64,000 bases of DNA from Deltaproteobacteria bacterium GWC2_55_46 (GTDB taxonomy: Bacteria; Desulfobacterota; GWC2-55-46), in the NCBI GenBank assembly GCA_001595385.3, contig LVEI03000001.1:1827501-1891500 (forward strand). The letters are read 5' to 3'. The stretch's first letter is position 1, and each line of letters starts with the position of its first letter. A program made the translations under genes and the position numbers. The notes under the pieces were generated by a model. The model worked only from the letters and a program-made list of their open reading frames with translations, was not told the DNA's origin and did not search any database. This document shows, one piece after another, positions 24,783-54,786 of this stretch.

Positions 24783-24818
24783 AGGGGGGGCGGCTTTTGC
24801 CGTCCCCCCTTTTTTTTA
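24783..24818 (+). terminator. Rho-independent terminator after rpoZ
   Basis: GGGGGGCGGC, a TTTT loop, GCCGTCCCCCC and a run of eight T. One T opposite G or A is the only imperfection in the stem. Confidence 0.93.
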
Positions 24819-50162: not shown

Positions 50163-50238
<76 letters not shown>

Positions 50239-50248
50239 AGAATATCAA

Positions 50249-50278
50249 GGGGTTACAGAGAAATCTGTAGCCCCTTTT
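50249..50278 (+). terminator. Terminator of tRNA-Lys
   Basis: GGGGTTACAGA, loop GAAA, TCTGTAGCCCC and TTTT, eleven bases after the tRNA. Related hairpins occur at 51998-52026 and 54757-54786. Confidence 0.85.
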
Positions 50279-50420
50279 GCATTTAAGTGTCCAGTTTTTG
50301 TCCAGTTGGCGATAATAGGGTCGCTGTAAGAGGGGACAGTTTTTTTGGTTTGCAAAGGCATGGCAATATGGTAGGTAGTATATAAAAAAGAATGGTGGGC
50401 GGAGCCAACCCTACTAAACT
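50249..50420 (+). repeat. Element left-end repeat, copy 1
   Basis: Begins with the tRNA-Lys terminator hairpin, then TGTCCAGTTTTTGTCCAG, a run of T, and ends CTACTAAACT. The portion after the hairpin (about 146 bases) matches copy 2 at 52023-52169 with roughly six substitutions and one T-tract length change by eye. It starts the first accessory segment. The remaining 50421-50543 holds a possible nfeD promoter, TTGACA at 50473-50478. Confidence 0.9.
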
Positions 50421-50543
50421 TCTGGAAGATAATAGAATTGAGCTACTATAAGCTTCCATCCTGTGCTACTATTTGACATCAGACTGGCGTTCTTTCGTAA
50501 TAAATAAGATTAAAACAAAGAAGGATTTTGGGAGAAGATACCA

Positions 50544-50996
50544 ATGGATATTCTGTCAATTGGTGTTTTATCGTACAGCATTGTATGGGCTATCCTCGGC
50601 ATTATCCTGATTGTAGCTGAATTGATGACGATGGCATTTGTCCTGGCTTTTTTCGGTTTAGGGGCTCTTTTGACCGCGTTCTTGACATGGCTTGGGATAA
50701 TTCCTGGCTTTACAAGCCAACTGCTGGTTTTTTCGATCTCTTCTTTAGGCATGCTGCTGATGTTGAGGACCTTCGCGAAAAAGCAGTTTTTCAGGAAGTC
50801 TGAAATGTCACAGGAGTTCATCGGGCAAAAAGTAAAGGTTACCAAGGCGATACCGGTTAATGGAGAAGGCGCTGTTTCCTATAGAGGGTCTGAATGGATT
50901 GCGTTTAGCGATTCAAAAGAAGTAATCCCCGCAGGCGCTATGGCGGAGATAATCGGTACGGAAGGCATCAGGGTCAAGGTAAGAAAAATAGAGTAA
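50544..50996 (+). CDS. NfeD-family membrane protein (short form)
   Basis: 150 residues. Two or three membrane helices (about 5-80), including ILIVAELMTMAFVLAFFGLGALLTAFL, then an OB-fold domain with EFIGQKVKVTKAIPVNGEGAVSYRGSEWIA. Short NfeD proteins act with SPFH proteins at membranes. The gene is two bases before the SPFH gene, in the usual order. Position within a tRNA-bound accessory segment is unusual for this pair. Confidence 0.9.
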   Translation: MDILSIGVLSYSIVWAILGIILIVAELMTMAFVLAFFGLGALLTAFLTWLGIIPGFTSQLLVFSISSLGMLLMLRTFAKKQFFRKSEMSQEFIGQKVKVTKAIPVNGEGAVSYRGSEWIAFSDSKEVIPAGAMAEIIGTEGIRVKVRKIE

Positions 50997-50998
50997 GA

Positions 50999-51949
50999 AT
51001 GGGGTGGGGAGGAATGATGGAGATGCAATTTGTTTTGCTTGGTTTTGTTCTTGTTGTCGTCATCGTTATTTTTAAAGGTGTCAGGATCGTGCCGCAGCAA
51101 AGCGCGTATGTCATCGAACGCCTGGGTAAATATTATGTCACATTGCATGCCGGTATCAGCTACATAGTTCCCTTTGTCGACAGAGTCGCTTATCAGCACA
51201 GCTTGAAGGAACAGGCTATCGATATCCCAGAGCAGGTCTGCATCACCAAGGATAATGTTCAGGTGGGGGTCGATGGCGTTGTATTTATTCAGGTGATAGA
51301 CGCGAAGATGGCCTCATATGGGATACATAACTACTTCTTCGCCATAACGCAGCTTGCCCAGACGACGATGCGAAGCGAAATGGGTAAAATAGACCTCGAC
51401 AAGACCTTTGAAGAAAGGACGACCATAAACGCGTCAATTGTCGGCTCGATTGACGAGGCGGCTAAATTATGGGGCGTTAAAGTGTTGCGCTATGAGATAA
51501 AAAATATTGTGCCGCCCAAATCTGTCCTGGTCGCGATGGAAAAACAGATGCAGGCTGAAAGAGAAAAAAGGGCTATCGTCCTGGAGTCGGAAGGCGCAAG
51601 GCTTTCCGCGATAAATGTCGCGGAAGGGCAGAAAAAGAAGGTTGAGCTGGAATCCGAGGCTTATAAGATCAAGCAGATCAACGAAGCGGAAGGGCAGGCC
51701 AGGGCAATTACCGAGATTGCGACCGCCACGGCGGAGGGGCTTAAAAAAGTAGCTGAAGCAATCACGGCTAACGGCGGGATGGAAGCGGTTCAATTACGCG
51801 TTGCGGAAAAAACGGTAGAGCAATTCGGACATCTTGCCAAGGCAACAAACACGCTGATACTGCCTTCTAATTTTGGAGATATGTCCTCCATTATTGCAAC
51901 GGCCATGAGCGTCGTAAAACATGTGGAACCAAAGGTTAAGGCACAATAA
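50999..51949 (+). CDS. SPFH/stomatin-family membrane protein (QmcA-like)
   Basis: 316 residues from ATG 50999; ATGs at 51014, 51017 or 51023 are better placed behind GGGGAGGA and would trim up to eight residues. N-terminal helix, then the SPFH domain: RIVPQQSAYVIERLGKYYVTLHAGISYIVPF and QTTMRSEMGKIDLDKTFEER. A coiled coil rich in Glu/Lys/Ala (about 180-245) precedes a helix-rich end. Such proteins form oligomeric membrane scaffolds and often protect proteases such as FtsH. Confidence 0.92.
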   Translation: MGWGGMMEMQFVLLGFVLVVVIVIFKGVRIVPQQSAYVIERLGKYYVTLHAGISYIVPFVDRVAYQHSLKEQAIDIPEQVCITKDNVQVGVDGVVFIQVIDAKMASYGIHNYFFAITQLAQTTMRSEMGKIDLDKTFEERTTINASIVGSIDEAAKLWGVKVLRYEIKNIVPPKSVLVAMEKQMQAEREKRAIVLESEGARLSAINVAEGQKKKVELESEAYKIKQINEAEGQARAITEIATATAEGLKKVAEAITANGGMEAVQLRVAEKTVEQFGHLAKATNTLILPSNFGDMSSIIATAMSVVKHVEPKVKAQ

Positions 51950-51957
51950 AACCAGCG

Positions 51958-51992
51958 CTCCGCAGGTTCGCCTGCGCGGCTTAGCAGGAATG
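51958..51992 (+). pseudogene. Degenerate tRNA-Lys 3'-end remnant between two accessory segments
   Basis: GCAGGTTCGCCTGCGCGGC (51962-51980) matches the T-arm and acceptor of the truncated tRNA copy at 54702-54745 (GCAGG/CCTGC stem) but has lost three loop bases. The CCA end is replaced by TTAGCAGG, then AATGTCAGAGGGGTTAC follows as at the other two sites. Alone it could be a chance hairpin; the following shared sequence makes a remnant more likely. Confidence 0.55.
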
Positions 51993-51997
51993 TCAGA

Positions 51998-52169
51998 GGG
52001 GTTACGGTACTGCCGTAGCCCCTTTTGCATTTCACTGTACAGTTTTTGTCCAGTTGGCGATAATAGGGTCGCTGTAAGAGGGGACAGTTTTTTTTGGTTT
52101 GCAGAGGCATGGCAATATGGTAGGTAATATATAAAAAAGAATGGTGGGCGGAGCCCACCCTACTAAACT
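51998..52169 (+). repeat. Element left-end repeat, copy 2
   Basis: Hairpin GGGGTTACGG/CCGTAGCCCC (51998-52022, loop TACTG) with TTTT, then the same sequence as copy 1, ending CTACTAAACT. The stem differs from copies 1 and 3 at paired positions while still pairing. It includes a complete GGTGGGC-GGA-GCCCACC hairpin, which copy 1 has with one mismatch. Nothing recognisable is seen between it and the ATPase start (52170-52385). Confidence 0.88.
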
Positions 52170-52385
52170 GATTTTAGGAATAGATGCTGATTAAAAATTT
52201 CATTCGCATTTAAGGGTTTTATATAAGGGGGCGGGTGTTCGTGGGTAGGAATAAAAATAAAGCTATCTAATTGAATTTACAGTCAATATGTTGTTATATA
52301 GAGAATCAATACCACTTAGAGATATATCCTCGCTTATATCGTTGAGTGGTTATGTTCGCTAAAAAGACAAGAGAACTGGATTAGA

Positions 52386-54566
52386 ATGAATAAAATAAAT
52401 ATCCATTTAGAAAATTGTTATGGAATCAAGAAAATTCAAACACAGTTAGATTTTTCTAAGCAAAGCGTTTATGCTATTTATGCAGCTAATGGTGCGATGA
52501 AGTCTTCACTTGCCCAGACTTTTCAGGATGTGGCCGACGCGAATCCATCTAAGGATAGAATATTTCCGACTCGCGTGTGTGTTCGAAATATAACCGATGA
52601 GAACGGTATTGATTTATCTCAAGAAAGCGTTTTTGTTATTCGTCCATATGAGGACGAGGATATCAGCCATACCGAGAAAACTTCGACACTACTTGTAGAT
52701 AGTAAGTTGAGAAAGGAATATGAAGAATTACATATAGAAATCGACAAATCAAAGGAAATATTTATAAAGGCTTTAAGGGAGCAATCCGGCTCTAAAAAGG
52801 ATTTGGAGAAAGAGATCTCCTCTGCTTTTACAAGCAGTGATGAAGAGTTTTACCGTGCATTGATCCGCGTACATGAAGAAGTATCGGCTCAGAAAGAAGC
52901 TCCATTTGCAGATATTGCCTATGACACGATTTTTGATGAAAAGGTTCTGAGTCTTCTCGACAACAAAGATATCAAAACGGCTATTGAGAACTACATTAAA
53001 AAATACAATGAACTTCTAGCTGCCTCAACCTATTTTAAAAAAGGCGTATTTAATTATTATAATGCTTCAGCAATAGCGAAGAACTTAGCTGATAATGGTT
53101 TTTTTGATGCTAAGCACTCAGTGAATTTGAATGCTGAAAAACGAATTGAAATTAATAGTCGTAAACAGCTTGAGGAACTGATTTCTAAAGAAAAAGAAGC
53201 TATTTCGACAGATAAAGAACTCAGAAAAAAGTTTACAGATATTGAAAAATTAATACAGAAAAATGTGACCGTTAGGGGTTTTGAGACTTACCTGACTGAA
53301 CATGAAGAAATTCTTCCAGAGCTGGTAAATATAGAGAGATTCAGAGAAAAGATTTGGAAATCATATTTTAAGGTACGATTTGAACTCTATAGTGATTTGA
53401 TCGAGAAATATCGCGCAGCTGAGAAGAGAAAGGAAGCGATAGAGGAGGAAGCAGGGAAACAGAGAACGCAATGGGAGTCGGTTATTGATATCTTTAACAG
53501 TCGTTTTTTTGTTCCTTTCAAGCTTAGTGCAGAAAATAGGGTTTCCGTTATATTGGGTCAGGAACAGATGCTGCGCCTAGCGTTCACCTTTGAGGACGGA
53601 GCGGATAATACGTCAGTAGATAGAGCCTCATTGATGGCGGCCCTAAGCACTGGAGAGAGGAGGGCTTTCTACATCCTTAATATTATTTTCGAGATCGAGG
53701 CTCGAAAGAAGGAGAAGCAGGAAACCATATTTATTATTGATGATATTGCGGATTCATTTGACTATAAGAATAAGTACGCCATCATTCAATATTTAAAGGA
53801 TATAGCTGAAGCACCTTATTTCAAACAAATAATACTTACACACAATTTCGACTTCTTCCGTACTATAAGCAGCAGATTTGTTAGCTATTCTAATTGCCTT
53901 ATGGCCCTGAAGAGCAGTAATGGTATTACATTAGAGCAGGCGACTGGTATCAAGAATGTCTTTGCAAACGATTGGAAGCCGAATTTTTTCACTGATCCTA
54001 AAAAGAAGATAGCTTCAATACCGTTTATTCGCAACCTCATTCAATTCACAAAAAGCGATAAAGACGCAGATTTTATCAAGCTCACATCATTGCTACACTG
54101 GAAAAGCGACTCTGCTTCAATTACCCAAAACGATCTTGATAGGATTTACAACACGGTGTTTTGTACAAGTGGAAAATCACCTGATGGCGATAGTTCTGTT
54201 ATTGGAATGATCCAACAAGAGGCAGACAAATGCCTAAAAGCATGCGATGGCATTAGTTTAGAGAACAAAGTTGTACTCTCAATTGCAATACGAATCTTTG
54301 CTGAAAAATTCATGATTGAGAAAATAAAGGATGATAAATTTGTTGCTAATATCAAGTCTAATCAAACCCCCAAGTTACTTGAAAAATTCAAGGAACTATT
54401 TAGCAGTGATGTTGACAATCTTGAAACCATTCAGCGCGTGCTCCTTATGACACCTGAGAACATTCACCTGAATTCTTTTATGTATGAGCCGATTATTGAT
54501 ATGTCTGATGAACATTTGAAGAAACTTTATGCGGATGTTTTGAGCTTGAACGTAGCCAAAACGTAA
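52386..54566 (+). CDS. SMC/RloC-like AAA ATPase with non-standard P-loop; candidate defence gene
   Basis: 726 residues, markedly AT-rich compared with the host genes. Layout is that of ABC-class ATPases with a central coiled coil: P-loop YAANGAMKSSLA (32-43), in which the Gly before Lys is Met; coiled-coil middle (about 105-370); signature LSTGERRAFYIL (420-431); Walker B IFIIDDIADSFD (448-459), with Asp in place of the usual Glu; H-loop ILTHNFDFF (483-491). After about residue 500 comes a C-terminal domain with no recognised nuclease motif. It lies alone in an accessory segment beside a tRNA. The role in anti-phage or stress response is inferred from context; no partner gene is adjacent. Confidence 0.75.
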   Translation: MNKINIHLENCYGIKKIQTQLDFSKQSVYAIYAANGAMKSSLAQTFQDVADANPSKDRIFPTRVCVRNITDENGIDLSQESVFVIRPYEDEDISHTEKTSTLLVDSKLRKEYEELHIEIDKSKEIFIKALREQSGSKKDLEKEISSAFTSSDEEFYRALIRVHEEVSAQKEAPFADIAYDTIFDEKVLSLLDNKDIKTAIENYIKKYNELLAASTYFKKGVFNYYNASAIAKNLADNGFFDAKHSVNLNAEKRIEINSRKQLEELISKEKEAISTDKELRKKFTDIEKLIQKNVTVRGFETYLTEHEEILPELVNIERFREKIWKSYFKVRFELYSDLIEKYRAAEKRKEAIEEEAGKQRTQWESVIDIFNSRFFVPFKLSAENRVSVILGQEQMLRLAFTFEDGADNTSVDRASLMAALSTGERRAFYILNIIFEIEARKKEKQETIFIIDDIADSFDYKNKYAIIQYLKDIAEAPYFKQIILTHNFDFFRTISSRFVSYSNCLMALKSSNGITLEQATGIKNVFANDWKPNFFTDPKKKIASIPFIRNLIQFTKSDKDADFIKLTSLLHWKSDSASITQNDLDRIYNTVFCTSGKSPDGDSSVIGMIQQEADKCLKACDGISLENKVVLSIAIRIFAEKFMIEKIKDDKFVANIKSNQTPKLLEKFKELFSSDVDNLETIQRVLLMTPENIHLNSFMYEPIIDMSDEHLKKLYADVLSLNVAKT

Positions 54567-54701
54567 CCAAATTTATCCAAAAGCACCTGAAGGAGTAGAA
54601 AATAGCCCAAAGCATATAATGGGCTAAGTATGTGAAAGTAGATTGAAATTCAGAAAAACGCAGGTAGAAGGCCCAGTTACAGTTTTAGTTCTTTTACGCA
54701 T

Positions 54702-54745
54702 TCTTAATCAGCGGGTCGCAGGTTCGATCCCTGCGCGGCCCACCA
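54702..54745 (+). pseudogene. Truncated tRNA-Lys 3' end (right attachment-site remnant)
   Basis: TCTTAATCAGCGGGTC matches the intact tRNA from anticodon loop on, followed by a different T-stem (GCAGG/CCTGC instead of CGCGG/CCGCG), the same loop TTCGATC, GCGGCCC and CCA. The 5' half is missing. It has the position and polarity expected of an attR left by integration into tRNA-Lys. Confidence 0.88.
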
Positions 54746-54756
54746 AGAATATCAGA

Positions 54757-54786
54757 GGGGTTACAGAGAAATCTGTAGCCCCTTTT
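54757..54786 (+). terminator. tRNA-Lys-type terminator hairpin, third copy
   Basis: GGGGTTACAGA, GAAA, TCTGTAGCCCC, TTTT, identical to the one after the intact tRNA. Here it belongs to the truncated tRNA. A possible -10 box TATAAT (54922-54927) for the following gene lies downstream; otherwise the 388-bp gap (54567-54954) holds only this, the tRNA fragment and a short AGCCCA/TGGGCT hairpin. Confidence 0.85.

Follow-up and report, generated by a model that had tools for sequence, protein, structure and literature searches.

The stacking of pieces of foreign DNA behind a single tRNA gene is a known route by which bacteria collect genes. Excerpts of the literature describe several forms of it: cis-mobilizable elements (CIMEs) and their tandem accretion (PMC5704250); 15 islands at ssrA in Dehalococcoides that have no integration module and are regarded as possible cis-mobilizable elements (PMC3146451); the additive island fGI-2 of Methylopumilus at tRNA-Lys(ctt), with tRNA 3'-end repeats and cassettes of 330 bp to 42 kb (PMC10872708); tRNA cassettes of Actinomarinales, for which transfer between genera is reported (PMC7771536); and cassettes at a tRNA in Alteromonas (PMC4119200). 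Tandem arrays are also known from the Islander collection, whose table, in the excerpt, gives 125 of two or more and 4 of three or more (PMC4383910).

Here, we analysed a tRNA-Lys(CTT) locus in a 64,000-nt stretch of DNA (the window) from Deltaproteobacteria bacterium GWC2_55_46, where two short segments lie one behind the other between the intact tRNA (left site) and a displaced tRNA fragment (right site). We consider it very likely that the site between the segments (middle site) is a degenerate hybrid attachment site joining two short, integrase-less insertions stacked downstream of the tRNA.

Anatomy of the middle site and of the two segments

The only tRNAs that ARAGORN predicted in the window were those for Arg(CCG) and Lys(CTT), and Rfam was in agreement. 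The intact tRNA-Lys and a displaced 3' fragment in the same orientation enclose the insert, and the boundaries of the segments are tRNA fragments (Table 1). Segment 1 (NfeD-slipin) measures 1.75 kb and segment 2, with the candidate defence gene PDC-S46, 2.8 kb; these three genes are the only annotated cargo. None of the seven places in the genome that matched the integrase domain PF00589 falls within 50239-54784, so that no tyrosine integrase gene was found inside the island. Both segments are bounded by att-like ends, the middle one being decayed. Among the 63 genomes of the class, PDC-S46 was found in this genome alone, and homologues were found in 27 plasmid records, the best near-full-length one being 58.7% identical. 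Some of the plasmid homologues carry the annotation 'phage infection protein'.

Table 1. Features of the tRNA-Lys(CTT) locus (positions in the window)
Feature	Position	Strand	Evidence
Intact tRNA-Lys(CTT), insertion target, T-stem CGCGG/CCGCG	50163..50238	+	ARAGORN, Rfam
tRNA-Lys terminator hairpin	50247..50276	+	Two tRNA-Arg genes of this genome are followed by similar terminators
Left end (LE) of segment 1, 11-bp-period repeat TGTCCAGTTTTTGTCCAGT at 50288-50306	50277..50420	+	Alignment, repeat scan
NfeD-like gene, cargo of segment 1	50544..50996	+	Pfam PF01957
Slipin (SPFH/Band 7) gene, cargo of segment 1	50999..51949	+	Pfam PF01145, PF16200
Middle site, decayed tRNA-Lys 3' fragment, T-arm hairpin 51962-51975	51950..51987	+	Folding, profile, alignment
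Middle site, trailer and terminator hairpin	51988..52024	+	Reading, folding, alignment
Left end (LE) of segment 2, repeat TGTACAGTTTTTGTCCAGT at 52036-52054	52025..52169	+	95% identical to 50277-50420
PDC-S46 candidate phage-defence gene, 726 aa, cargo of segment 2	52386..54566	+	PADLOC, E 4e-281
Right site, displaced tRNA-Lys 3' fragment, T-stem GCAGG/CCTGC at 54718-54734	54702..54745 (start approximate)	+	Profile
Right site, trailer and terminator, 97% identical to those of the intact tRNA	54746..54784	+	Block alignment

The first-pass annotation had noted a T-arm-like sequence with a shortened loop at the middle site, and this could be read directly as the hairpin GCAGG-TTCG-CCTGC, in which the T-loop has 4 nt instead of 7 (3 nt lost). 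Its observation that this stem matches the right fragment and differs from the intact tRNA was likewise borne out when both were read. The likeness to a tRNA is longer than first noted: it starts at about 51950 with AACCAGCG, corresponding to the 3' strand of the anticodon stem, spans the acceptor stem and enters the terminator hairpin, ending near 52024. Downstream of the T-arm and the altered acceptor end, together with the second arm of the terminator hairpin, lies AATGTCAGAGGGGTTAC (51989-52005), which recurred in the window only at 54748-54764, with 1 mismatch (up to 3 allowed; 0.10 matches expected).

With a profile derived from relatives (16 tRNA-Lys ends and fragments), every copy from the genome itself being excluded, the forward strand of the window gave the intact tRNA-Lys (50209, 105.4 bits), the right fragment (54715, 77.2 bits) and the middle site (51961, 71.6 bits, E 2e-21), as compared with a best score of 9.7 bits in 30 simulated windows. 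The palindromic terminators of these sites account for three weaker matches on the opposite strand (17.6 to 20.6 bits); two further matches, near 24,800, reached only 8.5 and 7.9 bits. These scores bear on the simplest alternative, namely that the hairpins only end the NfeD-slipin operon and resemble a tRNA by chance. The site does begin immediately past the stop codon of slipin, its last element is a GC-rich hairpin with TTTT behind it, and its strand folds with z = -5.9; the E value against tRNA ends of other genomes, and the fact that T-arm, acceptor and left end are all recognizable, nevertheless refute this alternative as the full explanation, and we regard it as extremely improbable. A terminator function may well persist today: the middle-site terminator probably also ends NfeD-slipin transcription, and its most likely present-day role is solely that of a transcription terminator behind slipin.

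Alignment of the three sites in blocks revealed its hybrid structure. In the tRNA 3' half, the left and right sites were 90% identical, left and middle 71%, and middle and right 73%; in the trailer and terminator the corresponding values were 97, 78 and 80%. In the approximately 145 nt past the terminator, left and middle were 95% identical, as against 49% for left and right and 47% for middle and right, and beyond this block no pair was alike (47-53%). Hence, the best pairings are left with right for the tRNA ends and left with middle for the left ends, and no left end follows the terminator of the right site. Since the middle site is in part a displaced fragment, like the right site, and in part a left end, like the left site, it joins two inserts, which upholds the initial proposal of an attachment-site remnant at the junction of two segments. 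When 51976-52180 was compared with the whole genome, eight matches were obtained, of which one other was near full length and lies beside the intact tRNA-Lys; the remaining six covered the terminator part only (the right site among them) or a dispersed GGTGGGC..GCCCACC hairpin. Each left end closes with the hairpin GGTGGGCGGAGCC(A/C)ACCCTAC (50393-50420 and 52142-52169), which has two more copies in the genome, is frequent in relatives and looks like a dispersed REP-like repeat.

We also asked, as the first-pass annotation had suggested, which host the GCAGG stem comes from. No foreign donor could be named: reading by eye 19 tRNA-Lys(CTT) genes of the family, we found GCAGG in six and GCTGG equally in six, and because these two commonest stems are equally frequent the T-stem cannot name a donor. 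The CGCGG stem of the intact tRNA is the rare one (1/19, also by eye), and the GCAGG of both fragments can be read simply as the ancestral host sequence. The middle site was closest to the tRNA end of the relative G014 and to the right site of its own genome, at 0.78 each, values too near to separate.

tRNA-Lys loci of relatives and spread of NfeD-slipin

A search of 29 relatives of the family allowed the region behind tRNA-Lys(CTT) to be fetched from 18; the usable loci numbered 18 including our own, as the G010 contig breaks off within the tRNA and several others end early. A further forward unit of at least 30 bits was present in 7 of these 18 loci (G000, G003, G007, G014, G019, G021 and G028), a count in which the relatives' copies were mostly part of the training set of the profile, the leave-out test applying to the window only. 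The stretches between neighbouring units comprised 12 short segments, of 0.67 to 2.76 kb, and one long segment each in G021 (18.9 kb) and G007 (33.0 kb). PF00589 was matched in none of the 12 short segments and in both long ones (truncated in G021). Eight proteins of the short segments, and a ninth encoded behind the tRNA-Lys of G012, were compared with Pfam; four had matches (acetyltransferase, S24 peptidase, YcxB-like and hemerythrin), and the other five had none. The largest stack was that of G021 (contig C3; L100, L101), where an 18.9-kb island with a truncated integrase is followed by four tRNA-end units in about 4 kb.

An empty and an occupied version of the locus were found within one genus. 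In G029 the tRNA-Lys is followed by an SDR gene, and in G014 by NfeD-slipin, a tRNA fragment and then the same SDR gene, the shared flank being 92% identical over 353 nt. Thus, only some of the relatives have cassettes bounded by tRNA repeats at this site. A glycosyltransferase search was of no help for synteny.

Slipin with at least 94% identity occurred patchily, in 7 of the 63 genomes of the class and in three genera, with homologues at 73-75% in three more. Five of the seven (G000, G003, G014, G019 and G021) have the high-identity gene downstream of tRNA-Lys within the fetched region; in G010 a tRNA-Lys stands just before slipin on the same contig, and the contig of G027 starts too late to tell. 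The dS of slipin from the copy in the window was 0.30 (G014), 0.33 (G021), 0.41 (G003), 0.46 (G027), 0.68 (G010) and 0.89 (G019). QueF, which lies beside the tRNA, gave 1.45 (G014), 2.02 (G021), 1.43 (G003), 2.56 (G010) and 1.63 (G019) and no value for G027, on short stretches (94-126 codons) that are near saturation. The patchy distribution and the dS of slipin as compared with that of QueF indicate that NfeD-slipin crosses genera.

These results also bear on the possibility that the 3' region of tRNA-Lys was duplicated locally in tandem, leaving no trace of a mobile element. Such a duplication would agree with the 145 nt that left and middle have in common at 95%, and we still judge it very improbable, given that the same architecture occurs with other cargo in other genera, that NfeD-slipin is spread across genera and that an empty/occupied pair exists.

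Left ends and the 11-bp-period repeat

Other tRNAs of the family have an integrase gene, full-length or partial, adjoining the terminator, and an 11-bp-period repeat lies in the 3' ends of these genes. Scanning the integrase-abutted tRNAs (Asn, Ala, Arg, Pro, Met and Glu), we found it in 13 of 14 (between +45 and +67, with 6 to 8 matches out of 8; the exception was L174), with several family sites and every 6-of-8 row being no better than about a tenth of shuffles and with row G003_2 left out as an artefact of N bases. The repeat was present at the left and middle sites and at many, not all, tRNA-Lys left ends of the family; the scan found none at the right site or at the tRNA-Lys sites of G029, G015, G011 and G009. 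In the middle site it lies 47 nt past the tRNA end, the usual position at integrase-bearing tRNAs. Its position and spacing suggest that the repeat pair represents present or former arm-type binding sites of an integrase.

Allowing up to 2 mismatches, TGTCCAGTTTTTGTCCAGT occurred 11 times in 8 of 62 genomes of the class, as against 0 for the reversed control. In nine cases a tRNA or a fragment of one precedes the repeat; in G019 one copy stands some 100 nt ahead of a fragment, and the eleventh (G048) has no relation to a tRNA and is probably due to chance. At the ten places in family genomes with a left end of the TGTCCAGT type (G048 being outside this search), PF00589 was found on the element's own side in none. 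The TGTCCAGT repeat pair was not found elsewhere in the genome at up to 2 mismatches, which lends no support to a resident helper.

An exact GTDB-wide scan for the repeat pair returned 18 stretches, two of which (L195 and L208) are family genomes already in the set. Among the other 16, three from Exilibacterium follow tRNA-Asp or its fragment, one from Sphingomonas follows tRNA-Glu, one in a Verrucomicrobia assembly lies behind tRNA-Phe at a distance of 123 nt, and six from Kordia and a Flavobacteriaceae relative and five others have no preceding tRNA. Because these last eleven do not follow a tRNA, the repeat pattern alone is unspecific. A viral collection gave 0 stretches for the longer pattern and 2 for the short one, including one in which the motif forms a tandem array. 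In Exilibacterium tricleocarpae (L196, L207 and L200), an unrelated bacterium, TGTCCAGTTTTTGTCCAGT stands three times behind tRNA-Asp or its 3' fragments in a similar architecture. In G006 (contig C117; L190:857-964) a unit of this kind, repeat pair included, lies behind tRNA-Arg(ACG), with no adjacent integrase match.

Order of events and comparison with known systems

In the reading we favour, both insertions would have been integrated by tyrosine integrases, with the integrase later lost or helping in trans. The left part of the middle site closes the NfeD-slipin segment on its right, as a displaced and decaying tRNA 3' fragment with its terminator, and the right part opens the defence-gene segment as its left end, including the putative pair of arm-site repeats. 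The defence segment would have integrated first at the tRNA, leaving the well-kept right fragment, and the slipin segment would have arrived afterwards with its own, already decayed right end, through recombination of the near-identical left ends. We rate this order, defence segment first and slipin segment second by left-end recombination, at roughly even chances. Left-end recombination with an old slipin right end would give the pairing pattern of the three sites. The slipin segment is closed by decayed fragments in G014, G021, G010 and G027; the remaining piece of its right fragment in G003 is well kept, which counts against the decayed-end reading, and no tRNA fragment was detected immediately after slipin in G019.

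Plain serial accretion differs from this only in the order of events, two related elements having entered successively at the intact tRNA, each displacing the prior 3' half, so that the middle site would be a second displaced fragment that merely decayed faster. This account, close to the usual one for tandem islands in the excerpt of PMC5704250 and matched by similar stacks in G019 and G021, is a serious possibility that falls somewhat short of an even chance. In plain serial integration the leftmost insert is the youngest, and the middle fragment should therefore be fresher than the right one; however, it is the most decayed (71% identical to the intact tRNA end, versus 90%). Moreover, the two left ends of this genome are 95% alike, whereas those of other species were far more different in an alignment judged by eye.

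A more far-reaching reading, which we hold to be possible but unlikely, is that the short segments form a family of non-autonomous gene cassettes that retain a minimal attachment half (tRNA 3' end, terminator and 11-bp-spaced arm repeats), moved in trans by passing tRNA-targeting integrases and stockpiled at tRNA-Lys much as in an integron. If this were true, the same repeat pair at tRNA-Arg(ACG) of G006 and at tRNA-Asp of Exilibacterium would mean a wider system.

Our analysis confirms a tRNA-Lys hot spot at which very small integrase-less segments, one with a candidate phage-defence gene, accumulate behind a single tRNA; Deltaproteobacteria assemblies from groundwater are among the members of the bacterial family concerned. 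Should the conserved left end be a functional site used in trans, it would account for the spread of single genes across genera with no mobility gene. A literature search, covering mostly titles and the beginnings of abstracts, yielded no description of the site or of the family. According to the excerpts of the articles cited, the ssrA islands of Dehalococcoides are, like the segments here, stacked behind one tRNA/tmRNA gene and each bounded by a 3' fragment, but serine recombinases act at ssrA, whereas the target here is tRNA-Lys(CTT) and neighbouring tRNAs have integrases of the tyrosine type; the segments are also of 0.7-2.8 kb here, with few genes. Methylopumilus fGI-2 has the same tRNA isoacceptor and, as here, tRNA 3'-end repeats with variable cassettes; unlike here, a conserved left end with an 11-bp-period repeat is not mentioned in the excerpts on the additive islands of Methylopumilus, Actinomarinales and Alteromonas. 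The ends of Islander islands are marked, as here, by an intact tRNA and displaced 3' fragments; the excerpted method requires one integrase per island and at least 2 kb (PMC4383910), and the segments described here, which have no integrase, would therefore be filtered out, as island finders demanding an integrase would miss them in general. The site fits the tandem accretion of CIMEs or additive islands, a known kind of structure.
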